DNA of 64,000 bases from Seohaeicola zhoushanensis (GTDB lineage: Bacteria > Pseudomonadota > Alphaproteobacteria > Rhodobacterales > Rhodobacteraceae), in assembly GCF_014656415.1 (NCBI RefSeq), contig NZ_BNCJ01000003.1, positions 172,075-236,074 on the forward strand, written 5' to 3'. The notes below the pieces were generated by a model, which worked only from the letters and a program-made list of their open reading frames with translations, searched no databases and was not told the origin of the DNA. Below, in pieces: positions 18,524 to 35,623 of this stretch (positions are counted from its first letter, which is position 1; each line of letters begins with the position of its first letter). The position numbers and the translations under genes are program-made.

Positions 18524-19212
18524 ATGGCGCGGGCGGATGATCGGCGGAGGCTCAACGGGATCATCTTGGTACCCAGAAATGGCTCTCCCTGGAGGGACTT
18601 GCCCGAACGCTGCGGCCCCCACACAACCATATGAAACCGATCAAACCGCTGGGCCAAGGTGGGGGCCTGGGTGCAGGTCTTTGAAACCCTTGCGGAAAGT
18701 TCCCCCCGACTGCATTCAGTTAATCGATAGCTCGATCGTCCGCGCCCATCAGCATGCGGCCTCGAGAAAAAAGGGGCGAAGATCACGCCATCGGTCGCTC
18801 TCGTCTAGAATTGAGCACCAAGATCAACGCGATGGTCGATCATCGCGGCCTGCCTGTGGCAATTACCTTCTCTCCGCGCCAAGACTCCGACAAGGTGGCG
18901 GTTGTAGAGCGTCTGTCGGCTCATTCCGCACCGGGAGATGTCGTGGCCGACCGCGGATATGACGCCCGCCCATCCTCGACCTCATCGCAGCTCATGGCGG
19001 GCGGGGGCATATTCCCACAAAGCGCGAAGGTCCAGCGCTCGGTCGATGCGGCGCTCTATCGACAGCGCAACCTTGTCGAGCGGATCTTCAACAAACTCAG
19101 TTACTTCCGAAAAGTCGCACCCCGCTACGGGAAGACAGCTAGAAACGACCTCGCAGCTGTCCAACTCGCTTCGTCTCGCGTCTGGCTCAGGTTCTATGAG
19201 TCCCTTTCCTAG
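18524..19212 (+). pseudogene. Decayed IS5-family (IS427-like) transposase
   Basis: Fragments of one transposase are spread over three frames. Frame 1 from the ATG at 18524 (GGAGG at 18514) reads RRRLNGIILVPRNGSPWRDL..., hits TGA at about 18631, then continues with NRSNRWAKVGAWVQVF. A second frame gives DSSIVRAHQHAAS. A third (about 18754-19212) gives STKINAMVDHRGLPV, VVADRGYDARP and RNLVERIFNKLSYFRK. The DDE aspartates and glutamate are all recognisable but cannot be made as one protein. The N-terminal part also looks short. The stop shares CTAG with the lipA stop, so the element inserted at the very end of lipA. Possible imperfect ends are AAGGGGGACTC at about 18469 and GAGTCCCTTTC at 19198-19208. 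Confidence 0.85.
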
Positions 19213-20168
19213 GCGCGGGTGACCTTCTTCCGGCGCGCCTCGCGCAGGCGGGCGAAATCGTCGCCGGCGTGGTAGGAAGACCGCGTCAGAGGCGTCGCCG
19301 AGACCATCAGGAAGCCCTTGTTATAGGCCACCTTCTCGTAGCTGGCGAATTCCTCGGGCGTGACGAAGCGATCGACCCGGTGGTGTTTCGGCGTCGGCTG
19401 GAGATACTGTCCGATGGTCAGGAAGTCGATGTCGGCGGCGCGCATGTCCTCCATCACCTGGATCACCGCCTGACGGTCCTCGCCGAGGCCGACCATGATG
19501 CCCGACTTGGTGAACATCATCGGGTCGAGTTCCTTGACCCGTTGCAGCAGCCGCAGCGAATGGAAATAACGCGCGCCGGGGCGCACTTCGGGATAGAGGC
19601 CCGGAACGGTTTCCAGGTTGTGGTTGAACACATCGGGGCGCGCCTCGACCACCACTTCCAGCACCTTTGGGTCGCAGCGGATGAAGTCCGGCGTCAGGAT
19701 CTCGATGGTGGTCGCGGGGCTGCGGTGGCGGATCGCGCGGATGGTCTGGGCGAAATGCTCGGCCCCGCCGTCCTCGATGTCGTCACGGTCGACCGAGGTG
19801 ATGACAACGTGGTTCAGCCCCAGCTTCTCGACCGCATGGGCCACCCGGCCGGGCTCGAAGGCGTCGAGTGCCTCGGGCGGCTTGCCGGTGGCGATGTTGC
19901 AGAAGGTGCAGGCGCGGGTGCAGACCTCGCCCATGATCATCATGGTGGCGTGGCCCTGGCTCCAGCATTCGCCGACGTTGGGGCAGCCGGCCTCTTCGCA
20001 GACGGTGACCAGCTTGTTGTCACGCATGATCCGCGCGGTATCGGCATAGCCCTTGCCACCGGGCGCCTTGACCCGAATCCAGGCCGGCTTCTTCGGCTGG
20101 GCATTGTCGGGGAGATGCGCCTTCTCGGGGTGGCGCTGAGACGGAATCTTGAGGTCACGCACGGGCAT
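19209..20168 (-). CDS. lipA: Lipoyl synthase
   Basis: A 319-residue radical SAM enzyme that inserts two sulfurs into the octanoyl chain on lipoyl domains. It has the auxiliary-cluster cysteines C57-x4-C62-x5-C68 and the radical SAM cysteines C83-x3-C87-x2-C90. The chosen ATG at 20168 follows AAGGA; the frame stays open further upstream but without similarity. The 3' end abuts the transposase remnant (shared CTAG), which may have removed the native terminator while leaving the protein apparently full length. Confidence 0.96.
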
Positions 20169-20174
20169 CAATCC

Positions 20175-20203
20175 TTGGTTCGTGCTCAGGGATGCCCTAG
20201 CAT
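20175..20203 (+). promoter_or_regulatory. Possible promoter of the lysine-rich protein gene
   Basis: TTGGTT (20175-20180) and TAGCAT (20198-20203) are 17 bases apart, 80 bases before the start codon at 20283, in the gap shared with the divergent lipA gene. Moderate match only. Confidence 0.35.
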
Positions 20204-20282
20204 ACCGCTGCGGAACGGGAAGTGCCAGCGGTGCGAGGCCGCAGGCGCGGTCCCAGAGGACGAGTTGAGGGAGCATGTGACG

Positions 20283-21182
20283 ATGGGCAAGGAACTGGAC
20301 AAGCTGAAGACCGAGTTCAAGAAGCTGCAGCCCAAGTGCAAGCCCTACACCGAGAGCGCCGGGACCAAGATCAAGAAGAGCGTGATCGCCAAGGTCAACG
20401 TCGCCTGGGACATCGAGACCGAGGTGCGCGAGGCGATCCAGAAGGCGATTGAATCGGGCGAAAAGGGCAAGAAACTCGCCGATTTCGAAAGCAATTCCGA
20501 TTTTTCGAAAAGTTTCAAGGAATGGAAAAAGGCGACTGGCGAACACAAGTCCGAGATAAAGGCCTTGAGTGAATTCTGCGGCGAAGCCGAGAAACTGCGC
20601 GACACGCTGAAATCCCGTTTCGAGAAGGTCGAGAAGGAATTGAAGAAGGAAAAGCCCTCGGGCGGCGACAAGAAGGAGACCGACAAGTTCCTGGCTTCGG
20701 TCAAGGACGAGATCGAATCACTGACCGAAGCGGCCAATGTCTATGGCACGCTCAAGTTCGTGGAACTCTTCTATGCCGCCAAGGAGGACGCCACGATGCA
20801 GGTGATCCTCAAGAAGACGGTCTCCAAGTCCTCGGGCGGCGAACTACCCAAGGTGCTCGAGGCCGGGGCGCGCAAGAAGGGACAGAAGCAGGTCGAGAAG
20901 CTCGCCCATGCCACGGCGGATGCCTATGACGACGCCTACCAGAACGCCGAAAAGGATCCGAAGGACGCGGCGAAGAAGATCAAGCTGGGTGATGGTATGC
21001 TCGACAAGCTGACCAAGTTGAACAAGACCTATCAGGACGCGCTGAAGAAGCAGAAGAAGGAAATCGACGCCTCTGCCGAGAAGAAGGAGATCATGGCCCT
21101 GATCGAGCTGGTGGCCGATTTCCTGGGCTCCTGCAAGGAGCTGAAGTCGGAAGCCGAGAAGGCGCTGAAGAAGGCCGCCTGA
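20283..21182 (+). CDS. Lysine-rich helical protein of unknown function
   Basis: A 299-residue soluble protein, by my count with 61 lysines but only 4 arginines, very unusual for a GC-rich genome where arginine codons are favoured. It is nearly all charged Lys/Glu/Ala stretches predicted to be helical and probably coiled-coil, with three cysteines (C18, C99, and one near 284) and no signal peptide or membrane segment. I do not recognise a family. Lysine is read mostly by AAG. GAGGGAG at 20267-20273 could serve ATG 20283 or the in-frame GTG at 20277. Convergent with the quinone reductase gene; no operon partner. Confidence 0.72.
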
Positions 21183-21224: not shown

Positions 21225-22199
21225 TCAGAGCGTGATGATGGTTGAGCCGGTGGTCTGCCGCCCTTCCAGCGCGCGATGCGCGGCGGCGATCTCTTCCAGC
21301 GGGAAGGTCTGGCCGATGTTCACCTTTACGTCGCCCGAGACGACCTTCGAGAACAGGTGCTGCGCCATTTCCTGGCATTTGGCGTGGTCGGCAATATGGG
21401 TGAAGAGCGTCGCGCGCGTCAGCTTGAGCGATCCCTTCGCTGCGAGCGTCAGCAGGTTGACCGGCGGAACCGGGCCCGAGGCGTTGCCGAAGGAGATCAT
21501 CATCCCGAGCGGCTTCAGGCAGTCGAGCGAGCCCTCGAAGGTATCCTTGCCGACGCCGTCCATGACCACGTCGACCCCCTTGCCGCCGGTAATCTTCTTC
21601 ACCTCGGCGACGAAATCGGCGCTGCGATAGTTGATGACGTGATCGGCGCCCGCCGCCTTGGCCAGCGCGCATTTCTCGTCCGATCCGGCGGTGCCGATCA
21701 GCTCGATCCCCTCGGAGCGGGCCCATTGGCAGGCAAAGAGGCCGACACCCCCGGCCGCGGCGTGGAACAGCACACTGTCGCCCTTGCCGATCGGCGTGGT
21801 GCGGTGGAACAGGTATTCCACCGTCAGGCCCTGCAGCATGATCGCCGCCGCCTGCTCAAAGCTGATCGCATCGGGCAGCGGGCAGACCTGCGCTGCGGGC
21901 ATCACGCGCGCCTCGCTATAGGCTCCGGGAGGCATCGAGGCATAGGCCGCGCGGTCGCCCTCCTTGAGGTGGGTCACGCCGGGGCCGACCGCCTCGACAA
22001 TGCCGGCGGCTTCCATCCCCAGGGCATGGGGCAGTTTCATCGCATAAAGCCCGGTGCGCTGGTAGACGTCGATGAAGTTAAGACCGCAGGCCTTGTGCCG
22101 GATCCGGATCTCGCCCGGACCCGGATCGCCAACCGGCCAGTCGACCAACTTCATGTTCTCGGGACCGCCCACTTCCTCGATGATGATTGTGCGTGCCAT
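21225..22199 (-). CDS. Zinc-less quinone oxidoreductase (MDR family)
   Basis: A 324-residue NADPH:quinone reductase-like protein. The N-terminal GroES-like domain includes GPGEIRIRHKACGLNF, and the Rossmann domain has AAAGGVGLFACQWA near 150, as in QOR-type members without the zinc cysteines. Such enzymes reduce quinones or enones in the cytoplasm. ATG 22199 has AAGGAG upstream; the in-frame ATG at 22232 does not. It lies 45 bases after the FAH-family gene on the same strand and may be the last gene of the leftward block A operon. Confidence 0.87.
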   Translation of the reverse strand: MARTIIIEEVGGPENMKLVDWPVGDPGPGEIRIRHKACGLNFIDVYQRTGLYAMKLPHALGMEAAGIVEAVGPGVTHLKEGDRAAYASMPPGAYSEARVMPAAQVCPLPDAISFEQAAAIMLQGLTVEYLFHRTTPIGKGDSVLFHAAAGGVGLFACQWARSEGIELIGTAGSDEKCALAKAAGADHVINYRSADFVAEVKKITGGKGVDVVMDGVGKDTFEGSLDCLKPLGMMISFGNASGPVPPVNLLTLAAKGSLKLTRATLFTHIADHAKCQEMAQHLFSKVVSGDVKVNIGQTFPLEEIAAAHRALEGRQTTGSTIITL

Positions 22200-22244: not shown

Positions 22245-23090
22245 TCAGCGGCCTTCGTCGACCACCCCGTTCACCAGCCGCCCAACGCCGGTGATCTCGA
22301 CCTCGACCGACATACCTGGTTCCAGGAAGAGCTGCGGCTTGCGATAGCGCCCGACGCCGCCCGGCGTGCCGGTGGCGATCACGTCGCCCGGTTTCAGCGT
22401 CAGCACGGTCGAGGCATAGGCGATCAGTTCCGGGATGCCGATGGCCAGGTCCGTGATCGGCGTATGCTGTTCGACATTGCCGTTCACCGTGGTCGTCAGT
22501 GTCTGCGCGGTGATGTCGCCGACCTCGTCCGGGGTGACGATCCACGGCCCCATCGAGCCGGACCGCTCAAAGCTCTTGCCGGGCCAGAACTGGGTCGTGT
22601 GGTTCTGATAGTCGCGGACCGATCCATCGTTGAAAACCGAGTAGCCGGCGATGTGATCCCATGCCCTCTCCACCGGGATATGCCGGCCGGCGGCGCCGAT
22701 GACGACGGCCAGTTCGCCTTCGTAATCCAGTTCGCGACTGGCGTTCGGCCGTTCGAGCGGGGTGCCGTGGCCGACGAGCGAGGACGGGTAGCGCGTGAAG
22801 ATCGAGGGATACTCGGGCTTGTCGCGGCCGGATTCCAGGATATGCGGCAGGTAGTTCAGGCCGATGCAGAGGATCTTCTCCGGCTCCGGGATCGGCGGCA
22901 GCAGCTTCACCGCATCAAGGGCGATCTCGGGCCCCTTGCCTGCCAGCGATGCCACCGCGCCAGCCTCGAGCACGACTCGCAAATCGGGCCAGGTGCCACC
23001 AAGTTCGGCCCCGGCATCGCGGATGGTTGCACCGTCTGTGGTGCCGTAGGAGCGGGTGCCGTCGGGACGTTCGAAGCTGACAAGCCGCAT
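22245..23090 (-). CDS. Fumarylacetoacetate hydrolase family protein
   Basis: A 281-residue enzyme of the FAH/HpaG fold. GLNYLPH is at 77-83 and the divalent-metal ligands are probably E124, E126 (DYEGE) and D155 (FNDGS). The C-terminus has KPGDVIATGTPGGVG, typical of the family. Members hydrolyse, isomerise or decarboxylate acylpyruvates and related ring-cleavage products. Its position below a TRAP transporter and in the same block as a dioxygenase supports a role in aromatic-compound breakdown, but the substrate is not known. Confidence 0.87.
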   Translation of the reverse strand: MRLVSFERPDGTRSYGTTDGATIRDAGAELGGTWPDLRVVLEAGAVASLAGKGPEIALDAVKLLPPIPEPEKILCIGLNYLPHILESGRDKPEYPSIFTRYPSSLVGHGTPLERPNASRELDYEGELAVVIGAAGRHIPVERAWDHIAGYSVFNDGSVRDYQNHTTQFWPGKSFERSGSMGPWIVTPDEVGDITAQTLTTTVNGNVEQHTPITDLAIGIPELIAYASTVLTLKPGDVIATGTPGGVGRYRKPQLFLEPGMSVEVEITGVGRLVNGVVDEGR

Positions 23091-23205: not shown

Positions 23206-24519
23206 TCACGCACCGGCCAGCCATGTCGCGATCGGCGGGAATATCGCGATCATGGCCAGCGCGACCAGCATCGCGATGACAAAGGGAAAAGCCCCCCGGA
23301 ATATGTCGCCGACACGCAGATCGGGGTCGTCGATAGCGGATTTGATCGTATAGACCGACAGCCCGAAAGGTGGTGTCAGCAACCCCATCTCTACCGCCAC
23401 GACGGTCAGCACCCCGAACCAGATCAAGTCAAACCCGGCCGCGCTGGCCACTGGCAGCGCGATGGGCAGCAGGATCAGCATGATCGAGATCGAGTCGATC
23501 AGGCACCCGAGCAGGATGATAAGCAGCAGGTAGAAGACCAAGAAACCGTAGGGCCCCAGCGACCCGGAGAGCAGCACATGTGCCAGTTCGCGCGGCACAC
23601 CCGAGAGCGCCAGCATCCGGCTGAAGAAGGTCGCTGCCAGGATCAGGAAGAGCACCGAGACGGTGATCTGGCCGGTCTCCACCAGCAGGCTCCAGAAGGT
23701 CTTGCGGTCCAGCGACTGGCGCAGCAGCGCAATGACCAGCGCACCGAAAGCCCCCGCCGCCCCCGCCTCGGTCGGGTTGAAGAAGCCGCCATAGAGGCCC
23801 CCCAGCACGAGCAGCATCAGGATCAGGATCGGCACCGACTTGCGCAGCATCGCGGCAAGGCCGAGGTCTTCATAGGCCGCCGTGTTCTCGTCCGCCTCGA
23901 AGACGAAGTCGCGCCGCCTGCGGGCAAGGAGCACGATGGTCGCGGCGAAGATTAGCGACAGCAGGATGCCGGGGCCGATGCCCGCCAGGAACATGCGACC
24001 CACCGACTGCTCGGCGATCACCGCATAGACGATCATCAGCAGCGAGGGCGGGATGAGCATTCCCAGCACCGACGACCCAGCCACCACCCCGGTCGCAAAG
24101 CGCTTGGTGTAGCCGTGGCGCGTCATTTCGGGCACGGCGACACGGCTGAAAACGGTGGCCGAGGCGATGGAGATTCCGGTGATCGAGGCAAAGACGGCAT
24201 TGGCGAAGACGGTCGCGATGCCGAGCCCGGCCGTCAGCCGCCGAAGCAGCCGCTCGAAGACGTCGAAAGTGTCGCGCCCCACCCCGGATATGGTGACAAG
24301 CAACCCCATCAGCACGAAGAGAGGCACGACCGCGAAGAGGTATTCCTCCAGGCTGTCGTTGGCCACTTGCGCCATCATGCGGATGGCCACCGTATCGCTG
24401 CGGATGAACGAGACACCCACCAGCGAGACGGCAAGCATTCCGATCCCGATCGGCATACCGATGAAGATCAGCAGGATGAGGGCCGCAACGCAGAGGCTGC
24501 CGATTTCGACCGGGCTCAC
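23206..24519 (-). CDS. TRAP transporter large permease (DctM type)
   Basis: A 437-residue inner-membrane protein with about twelve hydrophobic segments, the conserved P-loop-like GVAGSSVLGMLIPPSLLMIVY and a GGLYGGFFNPTEAGAAGAFGA block typical of DctM. It is the sodium-coupled channel of a TRAP transporter. The start is GTG at 24519, overlapping the DctQ stop as GTGA with GGGAGG upstream. The frame continues upstream over dctQ but in a non-coding register, so this is not a DctQM fusion. Transporter one of three TRAP systems here. Confidence 0.92.
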   Translation of the reverse strand: MSPVEIGSLCVAALILLIFIGMPIGIGMLAVSLVGVSFIRSDTVAIRMMAQVANDSLEEYLFAVVPLFVLMGLLVTISGVGRDTFDVFERLLRRLTAGLGIATVFANAVFASITGISIASATVFSRVAVPEMTRHGYTKRFATGVVAGSSVLGMLIPPSLLMIVYAVIAEQSVGRMFLAGIGPGILLSLIFAATIVLLARRRRDFVFEADENTAAYEDLGLAAMLRKSVPILILMLLVLGGLYGGFFNPTEAGAAGAFGALVIALLRQSLDRKTFWSLLVETGQITVSVLFLILAATFFSRMLALSGVPRELAHVLLSGSLGPYGFLVFYLLLIILLGCLIDSISIMLILLPIALPVASAAGFDLIWFGVLTVVAVEMGLLTPPFGLSVYTIKSAIDDPDLRVGDIFRGAFPFVIAMLVALAMIAIFPPIATWLAGA

Positions 24520-25082
24520 GTCCTGACCCTCCCGAAGTTGCGAAGTTCGGCGATGCAGCGGACGGCGAATTCGATGGCGGCGACGGCAAAGCCCATGAGG
24601 ATCAGCAGGCGGAACGGCCAGGTCGGCATGGTCGCCATGCCGACGATGCCGATGAACTCGGACGAGGCGAGGTCCTTTTCCAGGATACGGATGGTCGCCC
24701 AGGCGACGATGCCCAGCACCGCCGCGCCGACGAGGTCGAATGCGGCGTTCAGGATGGCCCCCGCTCGGGGGAACCGCTGAGTGAAGGGCAGGATGAAGAT
24801 CTCGGTCCGCGCCAATCGTCGCGAGCGGACATTCGCGGCGAGTTGGAGGGCCACCAGCAGGACCACCAGCAAGGCGCCGGCCTCGGAGACCAGCGGCAGC
24901 GAGGCCCCGGCCGAGTTGCGCGCGACGATATCGGCGCAGACGATCAGCATGAGGATGCCGATCAGCACGGTGCCGGCGGCGGCAAAGCCTTCGACCACCC
25001 ACCGCCAGACCCGCGCCAGCCCGGCTTCGCGAAGGCGCGGCCCATCCGGGGCCGCGCCGATTGTCTGGTCATTTCCTGCCAC
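24516..25082 (-). CDS. TRAP transporter small permease (DctQ type)
   Basis: A 188-residue membrane protein with four hydrophobic segments (roughly residues 30-50, 62-82, 110-130, 150-170), as usual for DctQ, which links receptor and channel. It sits nine bases after dctP and overlaps dctM by four bases. Sequence of the small subunit is poorly conserved, so the call relies on topology and context as much as on similarity. Confidence 0.88.
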   Translation of the reverse strand: MAGNDQTIGAAPDGPRLREAGLARVWRWVVEGFAAAGTVLIGILMLIVCADIVARNSAGASLPLVSEAGALLVVLLVALQLAANVRSRRLARTEIFILPFTQRFPRAGAILNAAFDLVGAAVLGIVAWATIRILEKDLASSEFIGIVGMATMPTWPFRLLILMGFAVAAIEFAVRCIAELRNFGRVRT

Positions 25083-25091
25083 GGGCGCGCC

Positions 25092-26159
25092 CTACTGGTC
25101 CCAGTTACGGGCCGGCTTCTCGCCCTTTTCGCGCAGCCGGGTCATGTAGTCGGCCAGGAAGGCCTTGGCCGGGATGCCCCGCGCCTCGAGCGGTGCGGCC
25201 CAGTCACCCGCGATGTCGGGCAGCTTGGACACCCATTTGGCGGTCTCGCCCTCGGGCATCTGGATGATCTGCACAGCCGGGTTCTGGCCCGCGCCAAGCT
25301 CGACCATCTTGTTCAGTGCGAATTCGTGCCGGCTCACCAGGTCCTGTGCGTGCGAAACGGTATAGTATTTCCCGGCCTCGACCATAGCCGCCTGCACCTC
25401 CTCGGGCAGCGCATCCCACGAGTCGCGGTTGATCGCCACCGCGCCCGAGAAGACCGCCCCGCCATCGAACCGCGCGATATAGGGCGCAACCTCGTAAAGC
25501 TTGATCGGCAGCGCGCCCAGCGCGAGCGAGAGCACACCGTCCGACACGCCCGTCTGCACGTCGGTGTAATAGGTGGTCAGTGCGCCATCGACGGCATTCG
25601 CGCCCGTCCCCCGCAGCCAGTTGCCCAGCACGCCCGGCGCCGAGATCTTGCGCCCCGCGAGGTCGTCGATCCCCGCGATCGGCTCCTTGAGGTAGAAGTC
25701 ATAGAGGTCGGTCGCCGTCAGCCCGAGCACCTTGAGGTTGTGGCTTTCCCATTCGTTGCGGAAGGCTTCGTTGTTGTCGATCAGCTCCTGCATCGTTTCG
25801 AGCAGCGCCGGCGGGTTCGACGTGGCGAAAGGCGCGTTGGAAGAGGCCTGGCTCAACGGCAGCTTGGCCTGCTCCAGGAAGGAGAAGACCCAGCCGATAT
25901 CGGTCACCCCCTCCTCGACCGAGCTGAGCGTGGCGTTGGCCTTGTACAGCTGGCCGCCAAAGGCCTCGTTCCATTCGATCTTGTAGTTGCCGGTCTTCGC
26001 CAGCAACTCGTCCGTCTTCGCCATGAAGTGGGACTGGATGAACCCGACCCAGGGCACGACGGTGGGGTGGCTTGAGGCCACCGTCAGGTTGATGGTTTCC
26101 TGCGCGTGAACCGGCAGGGCGAGAACGCTTGCGAGAAGCGCGCCGCGAATGAAATTCAT
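25092..26159 (-). CDS. TRAP transporter substrate-binding protein (DctP type)
   Basis: A 355-residue periplasmic receptor. The start at 26159 gives a clean signal peptide (MNFIRGALLASVLALPVHAQ) with GGGAGG before it; the in-frame ATG at 26222 would not. The body has FLKEPIAGIDDLAGRKI and the LALGALPIKLYEVAPY region typical of the family. Ligands of TRAP systems are mostly organic acids; the neighbouring CoA-transferase and citryl-CoA lyase-like genes suggest a di- or tricarboxylate or an aromatic acid. Unlike the other transporters here, no hairpin follows this gene. Confidence 0.92.
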   Translation of the reverse strand: MNFIRGALLASVLALPVHAQETINLTVASSHPTVVPWVGFIQSHFMAKTDELLAKTGNYKIEWNEAFGGQLYKANATLSSVEEGVTDIGWVFSFLEQAKLPLSQASSNAPFATSNPPALLETMQELIDNNEAFRNEWESHNLKVLGLTATDLYDFYLKEPIAGIDDLAGRKISAPGVLGNWLRGTGANAVDGALTTYYTDVQTGVSDGVLSLALGALPIKLYEVAPYIARFDGGAVFSGAVAINRDSWDALPEEVQAAMVEAGKYYTVSHAQDLVSRHEFALNKMVELGAGQNPAVQIIQMPEGETAKWVSKLPDIAGDWAAPLEARGIPAKAFLADYMTRLREKGEKPARNWDQ

Positions 26160-26310: not shown

Positions 26311-27456
26311 TCACCCCGCCTTTCTACGTGCGAGTTCTGCGCGGATCTCGGCGCCGTGCTCGTCGAGCACGGGCGGCGGCAGCACCTCCAGTTCGGGTGC
26401 TCCGTCGAAATTGTAGGGGGCGCGGACCGTCGTGAACATCCCGAGTTCGGTCGAAGGCGCAGAAACCTTGAGCTGCAGGTGTTGCGCCTGCGGGTCTTCA
26501 AGCGCCTCGTCCGAGTCGTAGGCCGGTGAATGCGGCACCTCGTTCGCCAGCAACAGCGCGCACCAGTCGTCGCGGGTCCGGCCCCGGAAGATCGGCGTGA
26601 AATGCGCGATCAGCTCGTCCTGATGGCGGATACGCTCCAGCCGCTCGCTGAACCGGGGATCCTCGGCCAGCTGTTCCTGGCCGGTCGCCGTCAGCAGACC
26701 CTGCCAGAACTTGGTCGGCGAGGAGAGGTGGATGGCCACCCATTTCCCGTCCGCGCATTCGAAGGTGTAGGACTGCGACACCACCGGACGGGACAGCGGA
26801 CCCATCACCTCGCCCACCGAGTAGTAATGCGTGAAGCTGTCGAGGTTGAAATGCGCCATGGCTTCAAGCATCGAAATGTCGATCCGCCGTCCCTTGCCGG
26901 TCTTCGACCGCTCCAGCAACGCAGCCAGGCAGGCCATCGCGGCATATTGCCCGGTGACAGAATCGGCGATGGCCGGTCCGATCACCCGCGGATTGGTGGG
27001 CGGAGTCAGCAGCCGCAGGTAACCGCTCGCGGCCTGCGCGACGGTATCGAAGGCGGGCCGGTCCCGCGACGGCCCGGAAGTGCCGAACCCCGAGATCGCG
27101 CAATAGATCAGGTCGGGCCGCATCCTGCGCAGATCCGCCTCGCCCGCGCCCAGCTTCTCGGCCACGCCGGGGCGGAAGTTCTGGATGAAGACATCGGCCG
27201 TCGCCACGAGGTCATGCAGGATGGCCAAATCGTCGGGCTGCTTGGTGTCCAGAGCGATGGACCGCTTGTTGCGGTTGTAGGTCTGGTAGTGCGGCGAATA
27301 GAGCCCGCCCTTGAAGGCGCGGAAAGGATCGCCCTCGCCCGGCCGCTCGACCTTGATCACATCGGCGCCTAGGTCGGCAAGATGCATCCCGGCGGCAGGC
27401 CCGGTGATATAGGTTCCCAGTTCGACGACGCGGAAGCCTTCCAATATCCGGACCAT
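26311..27456 (-). CDS. Class III (CaiB/BaiF) CoA-transferase
   Basis: A 381-residue CoA-transferase moving CoA between carboxylic acids. The N-terminus has the family pattern RVVELGTYITGPAAGMHLADLGADVIKVE; the catalytic aspartate is probably D165 in IADSVTG. It starts three bases after the stop-side neighbour citryl-CoA lyase-like gene, so the two are surely co-expressed. Together they could activate a hydroxy-polycarboxylic acid as CoA ester and split it. Length is normal and the protein looks intact. Confidence 0.9.
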   Translation of the reverse strand: MVRILEGFRVVELGTYITGPAAGMHLADLGADVIKVERPGEGDPFRAFKGGLYSPHYQTYNRNKRSIALDTKQPDDLAILHDLVATADVFIQNFRPGVAEKLGAGEADLRRMRPDLIYCAISGFGTSGPSRDRPAFDTVAQAASGYLRLLTPPTNPRVIGPAIADSVTGQYAAMACLAALLERSKTGKGRRIDISMLEAMAHFNLDSFTHYYSVGEVMGPLSRPVVSQSYTFECADGKWVAIHLSSPTKFWQGLLTATGQEQLAEDPRFSERLERIRHQDELIAHFTPIFRGRTRDDWCALLLANEVPHSPAYDSDEALEDPQAQHLQLKVSAPSTELGMFTTVRAPYNFDGAPELEVLPPPVLDEHGAEIRAELARRKAG

Positions 27457-27459
27457 GGC

Positions 27460-28269
27460 CTATTCCGCCGCGCTTTTGTGCCGCGACGGCTTGCCGTCGT
27501 AAGCGATGGCAAGATCCGCCTGATGCGACATGATGAACCCGATCGACCGCTGCGCCTCTTCGAAGAGATGGGCCGAAAGGCCCGCGGCCCGCGCCAGCAG
27601 CGGCACCGCCTTGACCGCCTGCACCGGCCAGCCCGCATCGAGGATGCAGGCGGGGATCGCGCCCGAGACGTTGATCGGCAGGGGCCGCCCGACGATGCCG
27701 GTCGCGTGCTTGCCCAGGATCCGCAGGGTTTCGATATAGGTGCCCGAGATCCCGAGATCGTCGGCGATGGCCAGCAGCCTGTCCGCACGCGGGTCTCCGC
27801 CCGAATGCTGCGGATGCCCAAGCCCTGCCACCTTGCGCCGGCTGGCCTTGTGCTCTTCCAGGCTGGCGATCGCGGCGGCCTCGATGTCGGTCCCTTCGGC
27901 CCTTGCCTTCTCGACGACCTCGACAAGGTAGAGGCCCGCCGCCTCGGAACTGCCCGCTACGACGCTGCCCATGCCAAGCAGCCCGGCCGCCATCGCGCCC
28001 TGCCAGGCGTCCGGCCCGGCGGCAAGCGTCATGCGGGCCGCCTGCACCGACGGCACCAACCCATGTTCCGCAATCGCCACCAGGCAGGCGTCCATCATCT
28101 GCCGCTGCGCCTCGGACGGTTTCTCGCCCAGCACCAGCAGCCAGAAATAGTCGGTGAAGCCGATCCTGCCGATCAGCTCGTCGCACAGATCAAGGCCGCG
28201 CACCGTGATGCTCTCGGCATCCGAGGTCGCAATCGCGGTATAGGCCTGCTCCTGTTTTCCGATGCGCAT
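27460..28269 (-). CDS. Citryl-CoA lyase-like protein (citrate synthase fold)
   Basis: A 269-residue protein of the short citrate-synthase-like type, about two-thirds the length of true citrate synthase. AGLGHPQHSGGDPRA (148-162) corresponds to the active-site motif with H152, H155 and D159, and AEHGLVPS (67-74) supplies another histidine. Such short forms cleave citryl-CoA-like thioesters into acetyl-CoA and an oxo acid. The ATG at 28269 follows GGAG; the open frame extends upstream through the operator region but is not needed. First gene of the leftward block A operon, divergent from the dioxygenase gene. Confidence 0.85.
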   Translation of the reverse strand: MRIGKQEQAYTAIATSDAESITVRGLDLCDELIGRIGFTDYFWLLVLGEKPSEAQRQMMDACLVAIAEHGLVPSVQAARMTLAAGPDAWQGAMAAGLLGMGSVVAGSSEAAGLYLVEVVEKARAEGTDIEAAAIASLEEHKASRRKVAGLGHPQHSGGDPRADRLLAIADDLGISGTYIETLRILGKHATGIVGRPLPINVSGAIPACILDAGWPVQAVKAVPLLARAAGLSAHLFEEAQRSIGFIMSHQADLAIAYDGKPSRHKSAAE

Positions 28270-28300
28270 TTTTCGCTCCAATATTTTCGCTGTGCGAAAA
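28270..28300. promoter_or_regulatory. Candidate IclR-type operator, three half-sites
   Basis: TTTTCGC-TGT-GCGAAAA (28284-28300) is a perfect seven-base inverted repeat. A third half-site TTTTCGC stands 14 bases to the left at 28270-28276. It lies in the 125-base gap between the citryl-CoA lyase-like gene and the divergent dioxygenase gene, whose next neighbour encodes an IclR regulator, the obvious candidate to bind it. Confidence 0.55.
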
Positions 28301-28394
28301 AGTTTTCTCTTGCCGAAGATATTGACACGCACTACCGTCAAGTCAAGCCGCAATGTCGCAGGAGGCCGGGGACGGGCCAGCGGGAGGGAAACAG

Positions 28395-29258
28395 ATGCGC
28401 GATATCAACCAGTTCACCATCACCGAAGCGGTGAAGCAGTCGTTCAAGACCGAGCCGGGGAGCCGCTTTGAACAGCTGCTGCGCGGGCTGATCGACCACC
28501 TTCATGACTACACGCGTGAGCACAACCTGACCCATGAGGAATGGATCGGCGTGCTGAACTTCCTCTACGATTGCGGGCAGATCTCGACGCCGGAACGGCA
28601 TGAGTTCATCCTGCTGTCGGATGTCCTGGGCTTCTCGGCCCTTGTCGACATGATCAACACCAAGGGCGGCGCCACAGAGGGCTCGAACCTCGGCCCCTTC
28701 TACCTCGACAACGCACCGCGCAAGGCGCTGGGCTCCGATATCTCGGACGGCCGCGACGGGGTGACGGTGCTGGTCCACGGCAAGGTGACCGACTCGCTGC
28801 ACAACCCGCTGCCGGGCGCAATCCTCGACACCTGGCAGGCCGATGCCGCCGGCACCTACCCGATCCAGGAACAGGACCAGGGGCAGGACAAGTTCGACCT
28901 GCGCGGGGTCTTCGAGGCCGATGCCAATGGCCGCTACTATTACACCACCGTCCTGCCCAAGCCCTATACGGTGCCCTACGACGGCCCCGTCGGACGGCTG
29001 CTGCGCGCCGGCAACCGCCACGCCTGGCGGCCGCTGCACCTGCACTACATCGTCCGCGCGCCAGGCATGAGCTCGATCACCACCGAAGTCTTCATGGAGA
29101 ACACGGAATACATCGACAACGATGCCGTCTTCGGGGTACGCCGCTCGCTCATCGCCAAGCTGAAGCCGGCCAAGGACGTGGAGGCGCTTGGCTACAAGCT
29201 CGACAAGAAACCGGATGCGATCTGCGAATTCGACTTCGTGCTTGCACCCGAAGGGTGA
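28395..29258 (+). CDS. Intradiol ring-cleavage dioxygenase, hydroxyquinol type
   Basis: A 287-residue Fe(III) dioxygenase that splits the ring of a catechol-like substrate between its hydroxyls. After a helical N-terminal dimerisation region, the catalytic beta-barrel has likely iron ligands Y155 (GTYPIQ), Y191 (PKPYTVPYDGP), H215 and H217 (PLHLH). The GTYPIQEQDQGQ stretch fits hydroxyquinol 1,2-dioxygenases better than catechol enzymes. ATG 28395 has GGAGGG before it. No maleylacetate reductase, the usual next enzyme, is in the window, so the later steps may differ from the known route. Confidence 0.88.
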   Translation: MRDINQFTITEAVKQSFKTEPGSRFEQLLRGLIDHLHDYTREHNLTHEEWIGVLNFLYDCGQISTPERHEFILLSDVLGFSALVDMINTKGGATEGSNLGPFYLDNAPRKALGSDISDGRDGVTVLVHGKVTDSLHNPLPGAILDTWQADAAGTYPIQEQDQGQDKFDLRGVFEADANGRYYYTTVLPKPYTVPYDGPVGRLLRAGNRHAWRPLHLHYIVRAPGMSSITTEVFMENTEYIDNDAVFGVRRSLIAKLKPAKDVEALGYKLDKKPDAICEFDFVLAPEG

Positions 29259-29264
29259 CATGCG

Positions 29265-30068
29265 TTGGAAAAGACCTCTAGCAGACCTGCCGAATTCGTC
29301 GAGGCGCTGGCCAAGGGCATCGCCATCCTCGAATCCTTCGACGTCGCCCATCCGGCGATGACGCTGTCCGAGGTGGCGCGCCGGGCCAGTCTCAGCCCGG
29401 CGGCAGCGCGGCGGTCTCTGCTGACCCTGATGGAACTGGGCTATGTCGGCCAGAAGGACAAGCAGTTCCACCTCAAGCCCAAGATCATGGCGCTGGGCTC
29501 GGCCTTCTACTTCTCGGCGCGGCTGGACGAGGTGCTGCAGGATGACCTGCGCGAGATCGTCGGTCGCTTCGGCGATGCCTCGTCTGTCGGCACCCTCGAC
29601 GGCGAGGATGTGATCTACGTCGCGCATTACTCGGTTCAGCGCGCGCGCCGCGCGGCCGCCGTGGCCGGCGCGCGCTATCCGGCCTATGCCACATCGATGG
29701 GGCGCGTCCTGCTGGCCGCCCTGCCCGATGACCGTCTCGACGCCTACCTCGAAAGCTACACACCCGAGCGGCTGACCTCGAAGACCTGCACGAACCGCCA
29801 GGCGCTGCGGGCCGAGATCCAGGTCGTGCGGCGCGACGGCTATGCGACCACGGTGGACCAACTCGATTACGGCATCACCGCCCTTGCCGTCCCGATCCGC
29901 GACATGGAGGGCAACACGATCGCGGCGCTGAACACCTCGGGCTATACCGGCATCGTGACGCCGGAAAGCCTGGTCAGCGAACGCCTGCCCGCGTTGCACG
30001 AGGCTGCCTCGCATATCGCCCATGCCATATCCCGCTATCCGGTGCTGCAATCCGTGTTGCGAGGCTGA
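29265..30068 (+). CDS. IclR family regulator, PcaR/PobR type
   Basis: A 267-residue transcription factor with an N-terminal winged helix (LSEVARRASLSPAAARRSLLTLMELGYV, about 34-61) and a C-terminal effector domain. The sequence style FVEALAKGIAILESF and YVGQKDKQFHLKPKIMALGSAFYFS is that of the PcaR/PcaU branch, which controls aromatic catabolism. The start is TTG at 29265, seven bases after the dioxygenase stop, the only start that keeps the full N-terminus. It probably binds the palindrome at 28284-28300 and controls both divergent operons. Confidence 0.9.
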   Translation: MEKTSSRPAEFVEALAKGIAILESFDVAHPAMTLSEVARRASLSPAAARRSLLTLMELGYVGQKDKQFHLKPKIMALGSAFYFSARLDEVLQDDLREIVGRFGDASSVGTLDGEDVIYVAHYSVQRARRAAAVAGARYPAYATSMGRVLLAALPDDRLDAYLESYTPERLTSKTCTNRQALRAEIQVVRRDGYATTVDQLDYGITALAVPIRDMEGNTIAALNTSGYTGIVTPESLVSERLPALHEAASHIAHAISRYPVLQSVLRG

Positions 30069-31633: not shown

Positions 31634-32656
31634 ATGCTGTTTCCCACATCCCTCGTCGGCAGCTACTGCCAGCCCGACTGGCTCATCGACCGTGAAAAGC
31701 TCAAGGGCCAGTTCCCGCCGCGCACCCGCGCCAAGGAGCTGTGGCGCATTCCCGAACCGCTGCTGGCCGAGGCCCAGGACGACGCCACCCGCATCGCGAT
31801 CCGCGAACAGGAAGAGGCCGGGCTCGACATCATCACCGACGGCGAGATCCGGCGCGAGAGCTATTCCAACCGCTTCGCAACCGCGCTCGACGGGCTGGAC
31901 CTGGACAATTACGGCACCGTCATCACGCGCTCGGGCCAGCCGGTGCCGGTGCCGCGCATCATCGGGCCGATCCGCCGGACCCGGCCGGTCGAGGTGGAAG
32001 ACCTCAAGTTCCTCAAGGCCCACACCGACCGCAAGGTGAAGATCACCCTGCCCGGCCCCTTTACCCTCAGCCAGCAGGCCCAGAACGACCACTACGCCGA
32101 CGTGCGGTCGGTGGCGATGGATTACGCCCGCGCCGTGCGCGAAGAGATGGCCGACCTCTTTGCCGCCGGGGCCGATGTGGTTCAGCTTGACGAGCCCTGG
32201 ATGCAGGCCAAGCCGGAGCTGGCCGAGGAATACGGCCTCGAAGCACTGAACGCCGCGCTCGAGGGGGCGGCGGGCACCACGGCGGTGCACATCTGCTTTG
32301 GCTACGCCGCGATGACCAAGAGCCGGCCGGACGGCTATTCCTTCCTGCCGCAGCTCAAGGATTGCCTCTGCGACCAGGTGTCGATCGAGACTGCGCAGGC
32401 GAACCTCGATACCTCGGTGCTGGAACAGATCCGGGGCAAGACCGTGATCCTCGGGGTGCTGAACCTGGCCGACATGACCGTCGAAACGCCCGAGATCATC
32501 GCCGCCCGCATCCGACGCGCCCTGCCCCATGTCGATGCCGCGAAGATCGTCGTGGCGCCGGACTGCGGCCTCAAATACCTGCCGCGCGACGTGGCCTTCG
32601 GCAAGATGAAGGCCATGGCCCAGGGCGCGGCCATCGTGCGGGCCGAACTCGGGTAG
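31634..32656 (+). CDS. MetE-like stand-alone catalytic domain
   Basis: A 340-residue protein equal to only the C-terminal half of cobalamin-independent methionine synthase. The zinc ligands of MetE are all kept: H219-x-C221 (HIC), E252 (SIETAQ) and C311 (APDCG). The N-terminal folate-side half is absent. Such short homologues act on other thiols or methyl donors (for example epoxyalkane coenzyme M transferases) and many are uncharacterised. Located 52 bases after the amidohydrolase gene in the same direction, so a role in the block A pathway, perhaps methyl-group removal, is plausible but unproven. Confidence 0.85.
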   Translation: MLFPTSLVGSYCQPDWLIDREKLKGQFPPRTRAKELWRIPEPLLAEAQDDATRIAIREQEEAGLDIITDGEIRRESYSNRFATALDGLDLDNYGTVITRSGQPVPVPRIIGPIRRTRPVEVEDLKFLKAHTDRKVKITLPGPFTLSQQAQNDHYADVRSVAMDYARAVREEMADLFAAGADVVQLDEPWMQAKPELAEEYGLEALNAALEGAAGTTAVHICFGYAAMTKSRPDGYSFLPQLKDCLCDQVSIETAQANLDTSVLEQIRGKTVILGVLNLADMTVETPEIIAARIRRALPHVDAAKIVVAPDCGLKYLPRDVAFGKMKAMAQGAAIVRAELG

Positions 32657-33004: not shown

Positions 33005-34714
33005 ATGAAAACCAACGAAGGCGTCATCAAGACGTTCATCGAAGCCGGCATCACCCGCGGCTTCACCCTGCCCGGTCTCGGCATCACCTGGTCGCTGCCG
33101 GCCTTCTTCGACCGCAAGGACGAGTTCGAACTGGTCCTGGCCCGCTCCGAGCAATGCGCCTCGGTCATGGCCCAGGTCGCCGGCAAACTGACCGGCAAGC
33201 CGGGGCTGCTGATGGCCCAGGGTCCTTTCGCCACCTCCACCGGCGCCTTCGGCATTCTCGAGGCCTATTTCTCCTCGACGCCCATGGTCATCATGACCGA
33301 CACCTCCTGCTATGACGGGTTCGCGCAATACGGCGTTTACCAGACGATGACCGGCGATTACGGCGCGGGCGACGCCTTTGCCGTGCTCAAGACGATGACC
33401 AAATACGCCACCTACGCCACCACCCCGGCCGAGGCGATCTATGGCACGCAGCTCGCCATCAAGCACGCCATGACCCCCCGCCAGGGCCCGGCCGCCATGC
33501 TGATGCGCACCAACATCATCAAGCAGGAGGTGCCCGAGGCCACCCGCGCCACGCTCTACCCGACCGAAGGCTACCTGCGCAGCACGCCGATGGTGCCGAA
33601 CCGCGCCGCGCTGGAACAAATCGCCACCTCGCTGAAGGGCGCGAAGAATCCGGTCATCATTGCCGGCAACGGCGTCTACATGAGCCGCTCGGGCGCGAAA
33701 CTGCAGCAGCTGGCCGAGCGTGACGGCATCGCCGTCGCCTCCAGCTATCACGGCAAGGGCACCATCGACGAAACCAGCGCCATCGCCGTCGGCATGATGG
33801 GCACCTGGGCTTCGGCCGCCGCCAACCGCATGGTGCAGTCGGCCGACGTGATCCTCGTGCTCGGATGCAGCCTCGGGCCGGAATACACCCGCTTCCGCGA
33901 CGCCCAGATGATGCGGCCCGGCGACCAGACCATCATCCAGGTCGACATCGACCCGCTGAACGCCGGCTGGGTCCTGCCGGTGGATCAGGCGGTGACGGCC
34001 GATGTCGCCGATGTCGTCGACTTCCTGCTGACCACCGAAGCCGCGCCCGCCAACACCCGCGACCAGCGCATCCAGCACATCGCCGCGCTGAAGACCGGCA
34101 ACGACTATGGCGTGCTGCCCCACTACGACACCCGCCCCGGCACCGTCCATTACGCCGACATCATGCGCGCGGTGGGCGATTTCCTCGGCCCGCAGGATCT
34201 GCTGACGCTCGACGCCGGCACCAACCGCATCTGGGCCACCTCGCGCCTGCCGCTGCGCCACCCGCACCAGCTGGTGGCCCCCGGCGGCATCGGCGGCATG
34301 GGCTGGAGCACGCCGGCCGCGACCGGCGCCAAGATCACCTGCCCCGACCGCCGCGTAACCGGCGTCATCGGCGACGGCGGTTTCGTGATGACGATGGACG
34401 CGGTGGCGACCGCCGCCGAACAGGGGATCGACGTCGTCTACCTGGTGGCCAACAACGCCGGCCTCGGCATGGTGCGCGACAACCTTGGCAACCAGGCCAT
34501 CGGGGTCGACTTCAACGACCACGACTTCACCAAGGTGGCCGAGGGCCTGGGCGGTTCTGGCATCACCGTCACCGAAGCCGACCAGATCGGCGATGCGATC
34601 CGCGAGGGCCACGCCCGCGGCGGTCCGGTGGTGATCGACGTCAAGGTCGATCCGGCTGCAAGTCACCGGGATTGCTCGGATTACGGAGACCTGTCGCCCT
34701 CGTCACTGAAGTGA
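33005..34714 (+). CDS. ThDP-dependent enzyme, acetolactate synthase-like
   Basis: A 569-residue thiamine diphosphate enzyme with the three-domain layout of the acetolactate synthase/benzoylformate decarboxylase family. The cofactor-activating glutamate is E49 (ARSEQCASVMAQVAGKL), and the ThDP-metal motif GDGGFVM...VANN is near 457-485. It decarboxylates or carboligates a 2-oxo acid. No small regulatory subunit (IlvH) follows, so it is probably catabolic rather than biosynthetic; the true substrate cannot be told. ATG 33005 has AGAGGAGGA upstream. It precedes an IclR gene by 63 bases and probably depends on it. Confidence 0.87.
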   Translation: MKTNEGVIKTFIEAGITRGFTLPGLGITWSLPAFFDRKDEFELVLARSEQCASVMAQVAGKLTGKPGLLMAQGPFATSTGAFGILEAYFSSTPMVIMTDTSCYDGFAQYGVYQTMTGDYGAGDAFAVLKTMTKYATYATTPAEAIYGTQLAIKHAMTPRQGPAAMLMRTNIIKQEVPEATRATLYPTEGYLRSTPMVPNRAALEQIATSLKGAKNPVIIAGNGVYMSRSGAKLQQLAERDGIAVASSYHGKGTIDETSAIAVGMMGTWASAAANRMVQSADVILVLGCSLGPEYTRFRDAQMMRPGDQTIIQVDIDPLNAGWVLPVDQAVTADVADVVDFLLTTEAAPANTRDQRIQHIAALKTGNDYGVLPHYDTRPGTVHYADIMRAVGDFLGPQDLLTLDAGTNRIWATSRLPLRHPHQLVAPGGIGGMGWSTPAATGAKITCPDRRVTGVIGDGGFVMTMDAVATAAEQGIDVVYLVANNAGLGMVRDNLGNQAIGVDFNDHDFTKVAEGLGGSGITVTEADQIGDAIREGHARGGPVVIDVKVDPAASHRDCSDYGDLSPSSLK

Positions 34715-34777
34715 CGGGAGCGCGGGCGCGACGGATTGGACAAAGACAGTCGAATCCGGATCGTCTATGATCGCGCC

Positions 34778-35623
34778 ATGAACGATACAAACGACGAACC
34801 GCCGGTCGCCAAGCGACGCGGCCGCCCGCGGCAGGACATCGGAAGTGCGGCACTCAACGACGACAGACCCTTCGTCACATCGCTGGCGAGGGGGCTGTCG
34901 ATCCTGCGCGCCTTCCGGGCCGAGGACATGGTCCTCGGCACCCAGGCCATCGCCGAGCGCACCGGGTTGCACAAGACCACCGTCTCGCGTCTGCTCGGAA
35001 CGCTGACCAAGCTCGGCTACCTGCGCTACATGCCGGAATACGGCAAATACGCCGTCTCGAACCAGGTGCTGACCCTGGGCTTCGCCGCCATCGGCCGCTT
35101 CGGCTTTTCCGAGATCGTGCGCAGTCATCTCGAGGAAATGGCGGCGGGCGGCGACTGCGTGGTCGCGCTCAGCGTGCGGGACGGCATCGACATGATGTTC
35201 GTCGAGCTGATCCGCAAGCCCACCGCCGTAGCACTGAACCTCAACGTCGGCTCGCGGATCCCGCTGGCGCTTTCGGCGCCGGGGCGGGCCTATCTCGCCG
35301 CGACGGACGAGGAGGAGCGGGCAGAGCTCTACGCCCGCCTCGCCAAGCTCTACCGCTCGGAATGGCCGGCCCGGAAAGCCGCCCTCGACGAGGCGCTGCA
35401 GCGGGTGGCGGTCCAGGGCTATTCCGACAGCATCGGCGAGTGGAACCCGCAGCACAATGCCATAGGCGTCGCCGTGCGCGATCCGCTGACGGGTGACCTC
35501 TACACCATCAGCCTTGGCGGCAATGCGGCGCGCCTGCCGCGCGAGGTTCTGATCGAAACCCACCTGCCCCGCCTGCTGAAGGCGGCGCAGGCGATCACGG
35601 CGCTGGGGGCCGGGCTGCGCTGA
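34778..35623 (+). CDS. IclR family transcriptional regulator
   Basis: A 281-residue regulator. The N-terminus has a basic KRRGRPRQ stretch resembling an AT-hook, then a winged helix (IAERTGLHKTTVSRLLGTLTKLGYL) and the IclR effector domain. I favour ATG 34778; a TTG at 34736 would add 14 residues. The ribosome site is poor for both. The stop TGA and the stop of the convergent tctA-like gene meet head on in TGATCA with no base between them. It probably controls the upstream ThDP gene. Confidence 0.87.
   Translation: MNDTNDEPPVAKRRGRPRQDIGSAALNDDRPFVTSLARGLSILRAFRAEDMVLGTQAIAERTGLHKTTVSRLLGTLTKLGYLRYMPEYGKYAVSNQVLTLGFAAIGRFGFSEIVRSHLEEMAAGGDCVVALSVRDGIDMMFVELIRKPTAVALNLNVGSRIPLALSAPGRAYLAATDEEERAELYARLAKLYRSEWPARKAALDEALQRVAVQGYSDSIGEWNPQHNAIGVAVRDPLTGDLYTISLGGNAARLPREVLIETHLPRLLKAAQAITALGAGLR

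Follow-up and report, generated by a model that had tools for sequence, protein, structure and literature searches.

What becomes of an aromatic ring once it has been opened, when the maleylacetate reductase expected beside a hydroxyquinol-type dioxygenase is absent? This question is raised by a 64,000-nucleotide stretch of the Seohaeicola zhoushanensis genome (the window), where a citryl-CoA lyase-like gene (CCL) and a CoA-transferase gene lie beside such a dioxygenase. An initial annotation had proposed that the pair activates a branched hydroxy acid formed after ring cleavage and then splits it, a lower pathway unlike the standard one. We compared the window with the best 80 of 166 relatives, giving 81 loci, a sample that leans to close relatives because of this choice; gene presence was scored by identity thresholds set in this analysis.

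The gene pair and its neighbourhood

The CoA-transferase (26311-27456, minus strand, 381 aa) and CCL (27460-28269, minus strand, 269 aa from its ATG) are separated by a 3-base gap (27457-27459), and both the reading frames and the family matches (PF02515 and NF004868) agree with the annotated pair of genes three bases apart. They head an operon on the minus strand, divergent from a dioxygenase gene (DOX, 28395-29258, plus strand) in which Dioxygenase_N and Dioxygenase_C were found (PF00775, PF04444) and whose ATG at 28395 is preceded by a purine-rich stretch, so that this part of the initial annotation is confirmed as well.

On the 3' side of the pair, and on the same strand, follow in order DctP, a TRAP substrate-binding protein (25092-26159; PF03480; 63 of 81 loci), DctQ, the probable TRAP small permease (24516-25082), DctM, the TRAP large permease (23206-24519, start approximate; TIGR00786, 325 bits; PF06808), an FAA-hydrolase family protein that is a candidate acylpyruvate or diketo-acid hydrolase (22245-23090; PF01557, 220 bits), and a Zn-type NADPH:quinone reductase of uncertain membership (21225-22199; NF008024, 373 bits; only 4 of 81 loci). 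DctQ is a 188-aa ORF between DctP and DctM, and its counterpart in related loci, a family of median length 189 aa, occupies the same place. The FAA-hydrolase protein is present in 13 of the 47 loci with DOX, against none of the 28 with an extradiol LigAB-type enzyme.

On the plus strand lies AMH, an amidohydrolase-superfamily hydrolase (start uncertain, 30169 or 30217, end 31581; NF006056, 429 bits, cut-off 391; 62 of 81 loci). In the TRZ/ATZ amidohydrolase deaminases the Glu of HxxE is catalytic; it is replaced by Gly or Thr in all 62 AMH proteins (HVVG 48, HVVT 13, HIVG 1), and a deaminase role was rejected on this ground. Next to it, a MetE-core-like protein (31634-32656, plus strand; PF01717, below NCBIfam cut-offs; 28 of 81 loci) may provide a methyl-transfer step, and is found in 24 of 47 loci with DOX versus 4 of 28 with LigAB. 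A TPP enzyme (33005-34714) was left out of the pathway because no other locus among the 81 carries it.

Conservation of the pair

CCL has the CoA-transferase as its neighbour in 79 of 81 loci, on the same strand in all 79, and the gap estimated from the matches runs from -7 to 29 bases; this association is beyond chance. Ring-cleavage genes accompany the pair in 75 of 81 loci. More distant CCL relatives, in Neorhizobium, Aminobacter, Cupriavidus, Burkholderia glumae and Variovorax, are also clustered with genes for CoA activation and ring cleavage, and one such cluster is held by the megaplasmid of Cupriavidus metallidurans CH34. For the FAD hydroxylase of B. glumae, neither the NCBIfam scan nor the PDB search named a clear substrate. 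The CCL paralogue of the window's own genome adjoins an AMP-forming CoA ligase, as read by eye.

The CoA-transferase belongs to class III (CaiB/BaiF): it matches PF02515 over its full length (353.9 bits; residues 5-367 on positions 1-365 of 366). The Asp of the AIAD motif, which carries the acyl group in this class, is present in the window (AIADSVTG) and in the six commonest variants, which make up 75 of the 78 aligned sequences. Its best PDB match is 9br6, a succinate-hydroxymethylglutarate CoA-transferase (185.4 bits), in a near tie with the formyl-CoA transferase 10uh (184.9 bits). It scores 220 bits for the nearest equivalog, succinate--glutarate CoA-transferase, whose cut-off is 750, so the substrate is probably another one.

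A shared operator

Between CCL and DOX lies a palindromic operator, TTTTCGCTGTGCGAAAA (28284-28300), the probable site of an IclR-type regulator. An exact copy of its core, TTTCGnnnnnCGAAA, lies no more than 80 bp in front of CCL in 68 of 81 loci, where 0.003 would be expected; with up to two mismatches it is present in 76 of 81, compared with a mean of 2.6 and a maximum of 7 in 50 letter shuffles. The A/T-flanked exact form has a single site in the genome, the one between CCL and DOX, which makes their co-regulation probable. The possibility of another locus under this control elsewhere in the genome was accordingly rejected, for sites with A/T end bases. In the 149 genomes of the family, the operator pattern had at least one match in 102, but the reversed pattern also matched in many, and the pattern is therefore not specific by itself. 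Extra copies of the operator are found at or just before the AMH start (12 other loci), a DesA-like demethylase gene (5) and LigB (2). The operator is probably bound by the IclR/PcaR-type regulator encoded at 29265-30068 (plus strand, TTG start; TIGR02431, 256 bits, below the cut-off of 284.75), a relative of which is present in 77 of 81 loci.

Two unrelated ring-cleavage enzymes

The nearest solved relatives of DOX are 8r2v, 3n9t (PnpC), 8r2w and 1tmx (E-values of 2e-63 to 1e-57). Both 8r2w and 1tmx are hydroxyquinol 1,2-dioxygenases, PnpC is presumably one also, and 8r2v is named merely as an intradiol dioxygenase. Together with its two domains, this predicts a hydroxyquinol 1,2-dioxygenase-like enzyme, although DOX falls below all NCBIfam equivalog cut-offs. 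The His-x-His motif is present in 46 of 46 aligned DOX sequences.

The intradiol DOX accounts for 47 of the 81 loci and an unrelated LigAB-type extradiol enzyme for 28, no locus containing both, and at least six switches between them are required on the tree of CCL and the CoA-transferase. Since the two enzymes replace each other, a 1,2,3-trioxygenated ring is favoured as substrate. Hydroxyquinol as the sole substrate is rejected: LigAB, being extradiol, should not make maleylacetate from it, and the presence of an extradiol enzyme in the place of DOX would be left unexplained. The nearest solved relative of LigB is gallate dioxygenase, and five DOX loci contain a DesA/LigM-like O-demethylase, below threshold in both families (527.7 bits, cut-off 800; 469.8 bits, cut-off 580). 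The window's genome has three LigB matches of its own; two of the three sequences were read by eye.

An altered citrate-synthase active site

CCL has the size (about 260 aa) and the citrate-synthase C-terminal domain of a citryl-CoA lyase (NF004868, 301.3 bits, cut-off 193; PF00285, 73.5 bits). Its best match is 6hxp, both by sequence in the PDB (E-value 6e-27) and by its AF2 model (Z 21.1; model confidence moderate, pLDDT 79.5). In citrate synthase, the His of xHGG and the Asp of NVD handle the acetyl-CoA enolate. At these columns CCL has Val104 and Ser202, and Val and Ser are found in 81 of 81 loci (HGG to VAG, NVD to NVS). His and Asp are kept in 6hxp, in both citrate synthases of the same genome and in loci L009-L014; the lyase-like ORF of L008 has NAT where NVD is expected. 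The oxaloacetate-side residues are retained in the alignment of the loci. Because both enolate residues are missing throughout, the reaction name citryl-CoA lyase is doubtful and lyase activity is not assured. We take the Asp replaced by Ser to be the same as D1026 of human ATP citrate lyase (ACLY). For the D1026A variant, PMC10115795 reports no time-dependent acetyl-CoA formation, and it argues that the residue acts allosterically. If our reading is right, CCL, as a stand-alone module lacking the disputed Asp, would bear on the debate over the role of the citrate-synthase module in ATP citrate lyase.

Proposed pathway and alternatives

The operator common to the pair and DOX, and the ring-cleavage association, make a CoA-dependent lower pathway the best reading. 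We hold it somewhat probable that the pair serves as the final stage in the catabolism of aromatic compounds, tagging a ring-cleavage product with CoA and then splitting it. An aromatic acid would enter via the TRAP carrier, and the dioxygenase, intradiol here and LigAB-type in other genomes, would open its 1,2,3-trioxygenated ring. A lactone or ester of the product may then be opened by the metal hydrolase, after which the CoA-transferase, as its family suggests, would place CoA, perhaps from succinyl-CoA, on the carboxyl next to a carbonyl or carbinol carbon. Finally CCL, if its fold is a guide, would cleave the C-C bond that lies beta to the thioester; the products would be acetyl-CoA plus either a keto acid or a dicarboxylic acid. 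Such a route would bypass both maleylacetate reductase and thiolase. The idea of an unusual lower pathway is thus retained from the initial annotation, whereas its branched hydroxy acid becomes one of two fitting chemistries.

The chemistry that we prefer, because CCL keeps the oxaloacetate-side residues and loses those for the enolate, would be the hydrolytic split of a maleylacetyl- or 2,4-dioxoadipyl-type 3-oxoacyl-CoA into acetyl-CoA and maleate or oxaloacetate. The broader proposal, that a widespread citrate-synthase-fold class so altered consists of hydrolytic retro-Claisen lyases acting on such esters of ring-cleavage acids (maleylacetyl-CoA or 2,4-dioxoadipyl-CoA) to give these products, is speculative and, as it stands, unlikely. 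A product acid closer to the branched hydroxy acid is possible, if on the doubtful side. The dioxygenase swap fits a pyrogallol-type ring, as do the resemblance of LigB to gallate dioxygenase and the O-demethylase genes, which have the same operator; a LeuCD-type hydratase lies inside the CCL clusters of L113 and L117 and, at a greater distance, also in L108 and L114; and the retained oxaloacetate-side residues suit this acid too. However, both enolate residues expected for such a cleavage are missing, and the ordinary gallate route requires no CoA. Moreover, the growth table of PMC8879955 records no growth of CH34 on gallate or hydroxyquinol, which speaks against gallate here and also against the CoA-dependent reading in general.

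Other observations weigh against that reading. Two of the 81 loci have no CoA-transferase nearby, five have no operator even at two mismatches, six have neither dioxygenase (one of them, L082, being a short contig that holds LigA), and in 14 both AMH and the MBL protein are missing. Nor need three unrelated hydrolases all catalyse a single step. With the queries used, neither CoA-transferase nor dioxygenase was matched in the distant relatives L109, L118 and L119. The clusters of certain CCL relatives contain no ring-cleavage gene. This would agree with a pair acting on an imported branched acid (citramalate or citrate-like), unrelated to DOX and in an incidental neighbourhood, as would the adjoining TRAP carrier and the aliphatic dicarboxylates used by the best solved match of the CoA-transferase. 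We consider this quite improbable, given the common operator, the steady company of ring-cleavage genes and the repeated changes of dioxygenase type.

If the standard hydroxyquinol pathway operated here, its maleylacetate reductase would be encoded away from DOX and the pair would do something else; this reading would fit the hydroxyquinol-type relatives of DOX. The absence of this reductase, pointed out in the initial annotation, is borne out: no PF00465 place was found within the window, and of three iron-ADH places in the genome none is clearly a maleylacetate reductase. One of them, at C13:66959, is ambiguous (its best solved match bears the name MAR1, 113.7 bits; the maleylacetate reductase 3hl0, 80.2 bits), and thus in favour of the standard pathway, but it is surrounded by P450-like and ABC-transporter ORFs, as read by eye. 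A co-regulated reductase elsewhere, which would have spoken against the annotated lower pathway, was sought and not found, the genome having no second A/T-flanked operator site; the C13 gene remains ambiguous. On these grounds, and as LigAB should be chemically unable to replace a hydroxyquinol dioxygenase, we regard the standard pathway as highly improbable.

Taken together, the pair and a ring-opening enzyme under one control site in many alphaproteobacteria point to an uncharacterised finish of aromatic breakdown. If so, marine and soil alphaproteobacteria would have a further exit from ring cleavage, and the common annotation citryl-CoA lyase would conceal a class of enzymes whose active site is altered. 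Were the retro-Claisen proposal true, hydroxylated or methoxylated aromatics would have a lower pathway that does without maleylacetate reductase and thiolase and can take the products of two unrelated dioxygenases. Since intradiol and extradiol enzymes exclude each other beside the same pair, the candidate substrates are few and the pathway is directly testable. Among the titles and abstract openings listed in searches of openly accessible journal papers, none described it.

Comparison with known systems

CCL resembles the citryl-CoA lyase 6hxp of Hydrogenobacter thermophilus and the citrate-synthase-homology module of ATP citrate lyase in size and fold, and shares with them the His of the (E/D)HG motif, the His of GxGH and the Arg of DPR; it differs in the loss of HGG and NVD, and in the position of its gene, beside a CoA-transferase in an aromatic catabolic cluster. 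The CoA-transferase is related, through PF02515 and 9br6, to the class III enzymes that use succinyl-CoA with glutarate, hydroxymethylglutarate or mesaconate, but is far below the nearest equivalog cut-off. DOX has both domains and the His-x-His iron-ligand motif of the hydroxyquinol 1,2-dioxygenases (PnpC, 1tmx, 8r2w); in contrast to their systems, the window is without maleylacetate reductase and LigAB substitutes in related clusters. Likeness to the gallate and 3-O-methylgallate pathway (DesA, LigM, DesB) is seen in LigB and in the below-cut-off demethylases of five clusters, whereas CoA activation and CCL accompany ring cleavage here. Finally, the beta-ketoadipate pathway ends with PcaIJ and a thiolase. 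The order of events would be the same in our locus, a CoA-transferase followed by release of acetyl-CoA, but the actors are a class III transferase and a protein of the citrate-synthase fold.

Gene layout and conservation

The gene pair proposed in the initial annotation is borne out: on the minus strand, a class III CoA-transferase gene (26311-27456) lies three bases from that of a citrate-synthase-fold protein named citryl-CoA lyase (27460-28269; the citryl-CoA-lyase-like protein, CCL). The intradiol dioxygenase annotated beside it was also found: this hydroxyquinol-type enzyme (DOX) starts at an ATG at 28395 on the plus strand, and is followed by an IclR regulator, an amidohydrolase-superfamily hydrolase (AMH) and a MetE-core-like gene. 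Downstream of the pair come, in order, DctP, DctQ, DctM, an FAA hydrolase and a quinone reductase.

A contig scan of genomes yielded 166 CCL relatives. We retained the 80 best, each with as much as 10 kb of flanking sequence per side (less at contig ends). In these loci and the window (81 loci), gene presence was scored by tblastn, with identity thresholds of our own choosing. The CoA-transferase is found in 79 loci (missing in L088 and L095), always on the CCL strand (79/79), with an intervening gap of -7 to 29 bases, as judged from the matches. An IclR relative is present in 77 loci, DctP in 63, AMH in 62, a YciI-like protein in 49, an FMN reductase in 47, a MetE-like gene in 28 and the FAA hydrolase in 13. 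Past the window's cluster come the gene of a TPP-dependent enzyme and another IclR gene (33005-35623); the TPP gene was found in none of the 80 other loci (stretches of up to 10 kb each side). At 19209-20546, a minus-strand ORF that strongly matches lipoyl synthase lies over a long plus-strand ORF for which Pfam gives no match, and gene borders there are uncertain.

A probable shared operator

Between CCL and DOX, upstream of CCL, lies the palindrome TTTTCGnnnnnCGAAAA (28284-28300), whose core we define as TTTCG, five bases, CGAAA. The exact core occurs within 80 bp upstream of CCL in 68 of 81 loci, for an expectation of 0.003. With up to two mismatches it occurs in 76 (50 letter shuffles: mean 2.6, maximum 7), and even so it was not found within these 80 bp in L070, L076, L078, L082 and L095. 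Requiring A or T at both ends leaves a single occurrence across the genome's 5.5 Mb; searched for by itself in other members of the family, the pattern is less specific. A second copy with two mismatches (28303-28319) adjoins the perfect one, and 24 of 100 shuffled versions of the window contain two or more matches at this tolerance.

The 81 loci contain 32 more exact sites elsewhere, a few of which seem unrelated. Some sit at a gene start or immediately before it: that of AMH in 12 loci, of a DesA/LigM-like O-demethylase in 5 and of the class III extradiol dioxygenase LigB in 2. Given the copies before CCL, AMH and the demethylase, and the site between CCL and DOX, sequence suggests that the pair is controlled together with DOX, AMH and the demethylase as a single regulon. 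IclR is the likely binder of the operator. In L073, L079, L080, L081 and L094, the places of AMH and DctPQM are taken by an MBL-fold hydrolase, a TAXI-type TRAP carrier and the demethylase, which has an operator copy at its start.

The initial annotation also held that the expected maleylacetate reductase is absent. This stands locally, as none of the genome's three iron-ADH places is in the window; genome-wide the enzyme is probably missing, without certainty. By eye, the first place is an aroB-like protein and the second a plain iron-ADH. The third (C13:66959) is ambiguous: its best solved match is an entry named MAR1 (113.7 bits), and the maleylacetate reductase 3hl0 scores 80.2 bits. It is surrounded by P450-like and ABC-transporter ORFs, and the genome search for the A/T-flanked operator found no site there.

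Exchange of ring-cleavage enzymes

By tblastn, DOX is present in 47 of 81 loci and LigB, with LigA, in 28, never both together (0/81). Six loci have neither DOX nor LigB (L070, L074, L082, L088, L095, L102); L082 is a short contig where LigA is present. A maximum-likelihood tree of CCL plus CoA-transferase (79 rows, built with a quick method) requires six or more changes between DOX and LigB; the AMH tree requires five or more and the IclR tree four or more. The nearest solved relatives of DOX are 8r2v, PnpC and hydroxyquinol dioxygenases; that of LigB is gallate dioxygenase. For intradiol and extradiol enzymes to give the same acid, oxygen is required on three neighbouring ring carbons, and the exchange therefore points to a pyrogallol-type ring. 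Alternatively, the two branches may converge at a later step.

Relatedness being ignored, DOX and LigB loci differ in MetE-like genes (24/47 versus 4/28, p 0.0015), FAA hydrolase (13/47 versus 0/28, p 0.0013) and YciI (21/47 versus 27/28, p 3e-6), and not significantly in FMN reductase (32/47 versus 15/28) or AMH (36/47 versus 26/28). Two more pairs of intradiol dioxygenase places (PF00775; C10:134579-135766 and C7:32890-33811) in the genome are probably protocatechuate 3,4-dioxygenase subunits.

CCL relatives in other contexts

CCL matches on plasmids amount to 135 records. We examined 20 plasmid regions, the early ones, including eight without annotated genes, being mapped by tblastn with chosen queries. 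Several regions group CCL with a dioxygenase and a CoA-activating enzyme, either a CoA-transferase or a CoA ligase: Aminobacter MSH1, which also has a CocE hydrolase and a MetE/URO-D protein besides LigB and LigA; Neorhizobium galegae, again with LigB and LigA; Variovorax, with DOX; Burkholderia glumae, with DOX, an FAD hydroxylase and a LeuCD-type hydratase; and Cupriavidus necator and C. metallidurans, with DOX, a ligase and, at a greater distance, LeuCD. In the regions examined, no ring-cleavage gene was found near CCL in Caballeronia, where LeuCD, CCL and CoA-transferase stand together, nor in Paraburkholderia, Bosea, Marinovum, Rhizorhabdus, Rhodococcus opacus and Nitratireductor; the CCL-like genes of Marinovum, Rhizorhabdus and Nitratireductor are near acyl-CoA genes. 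With the chosen tblastn queries, L109, L118 and L119 matched neither CoA-transferase nor dioxygenase, and Niveispirillum has the CoA-transferase with only a weak LigB-like match. In Rhodococcus rhodochrous, CoA-transferase and CCL lie amid aromatic-type oxygenase genes. CCL-like genes of the 36-37 percent class in L111 and L139 stand among HMG-CoA-lyase-like, carboxylase and acyl-CoA dehydrogenase genes, in clusters resembling isoprenoid degradation.

C. metallidurans CH34 is reported not to grow on gallate or on hydroxyquinol (PMC8879955), which argues against these as the simple substrates of its cluster.

A candidate pathway

The most likely order is ring cleavage, hydrolysis of the cleavage product, CoA transfer onto the hydrolysed product by the class III CoA-transferase, and C-C cleavage, which would yield acetyl-CoA and a keto or dicarboxylic acid. 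The hydrolase slot, held by AMH in 62 loci, is held by an MBL-fold protein in 5 of 81 and by neither in 14; in Aminobacter, the CocE-type hydrolase occupies it. Lactone or ester opening fits this slot. Deamination is rejected, all 62 AMH proteins being without the deaminase HxxE Glu. The best solved match of the CoA-transferase is a succinate-hydroxymethylglutarate enzyme, formyl-CoA transferase being nearly tied.

A probably altered active site in CCL

Hydrogenobacter citryl-CoA lyase (6hxp) is the best solved match of CCL by sequence and also for its AlphaFold model (pLDDT 79.5; Z 21.1 across 227 residues). In all 81 loci, the HGG-motif His is replaced by Val (GSVVAG 68, GTVVAG 13) and the NVD Asp by Ser (NVSGAI 81), while EHG, GHPQH and DPR are each retained in 81/81. 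The Ser recurs in Burkholderia, Paraburkholderia, Cupriavidus, Agrobacterium and Bosea CCL-like proteins, with Thr in that of Marinovum. The genome encodes another CCL that also has the Ser (C2:75750-76499; L133:7742-8668); it shares 48 percent identity with the first and, by eye, has a PaaK-like CoA ligase and a permease of the TRAP type as neighbours.

Since the residues are lost, yet their replacements strictly conserved, the pattern suggests changed chemistry rather than decay. Sequence is compatible with two chemistries. One is the splitting of a tertiary 3-hydroxyacyl-CoA, as in citryl-CoA. The other, which we prefer, is hydrolytic splitting of a 3-oxoacyl-CoA, because CCL retains the oxaloacetate side and has lost the enolate side, and because the LeuCD-type proteins in the B. 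glumae cluster, LeuC/LeuD by NCBIfam, could by homology be a maleate hydratase. The two altered columns are, we assume, those of pig His274 and Asp375. In human ATP citrate lyase, the Asp mutant D1026A is reported to show no time-dependent acetyl-CoA formation, the authors arguing for an allosteric rather than catalytic role of the module (PMC10115795). Unlike in CCL, with its Val and Ser, both the His and the Asp are present in 6hxp, in the two citrate synthases that the genome encodes and in six canonical lyase-like proteins from relatives (L009-L014).
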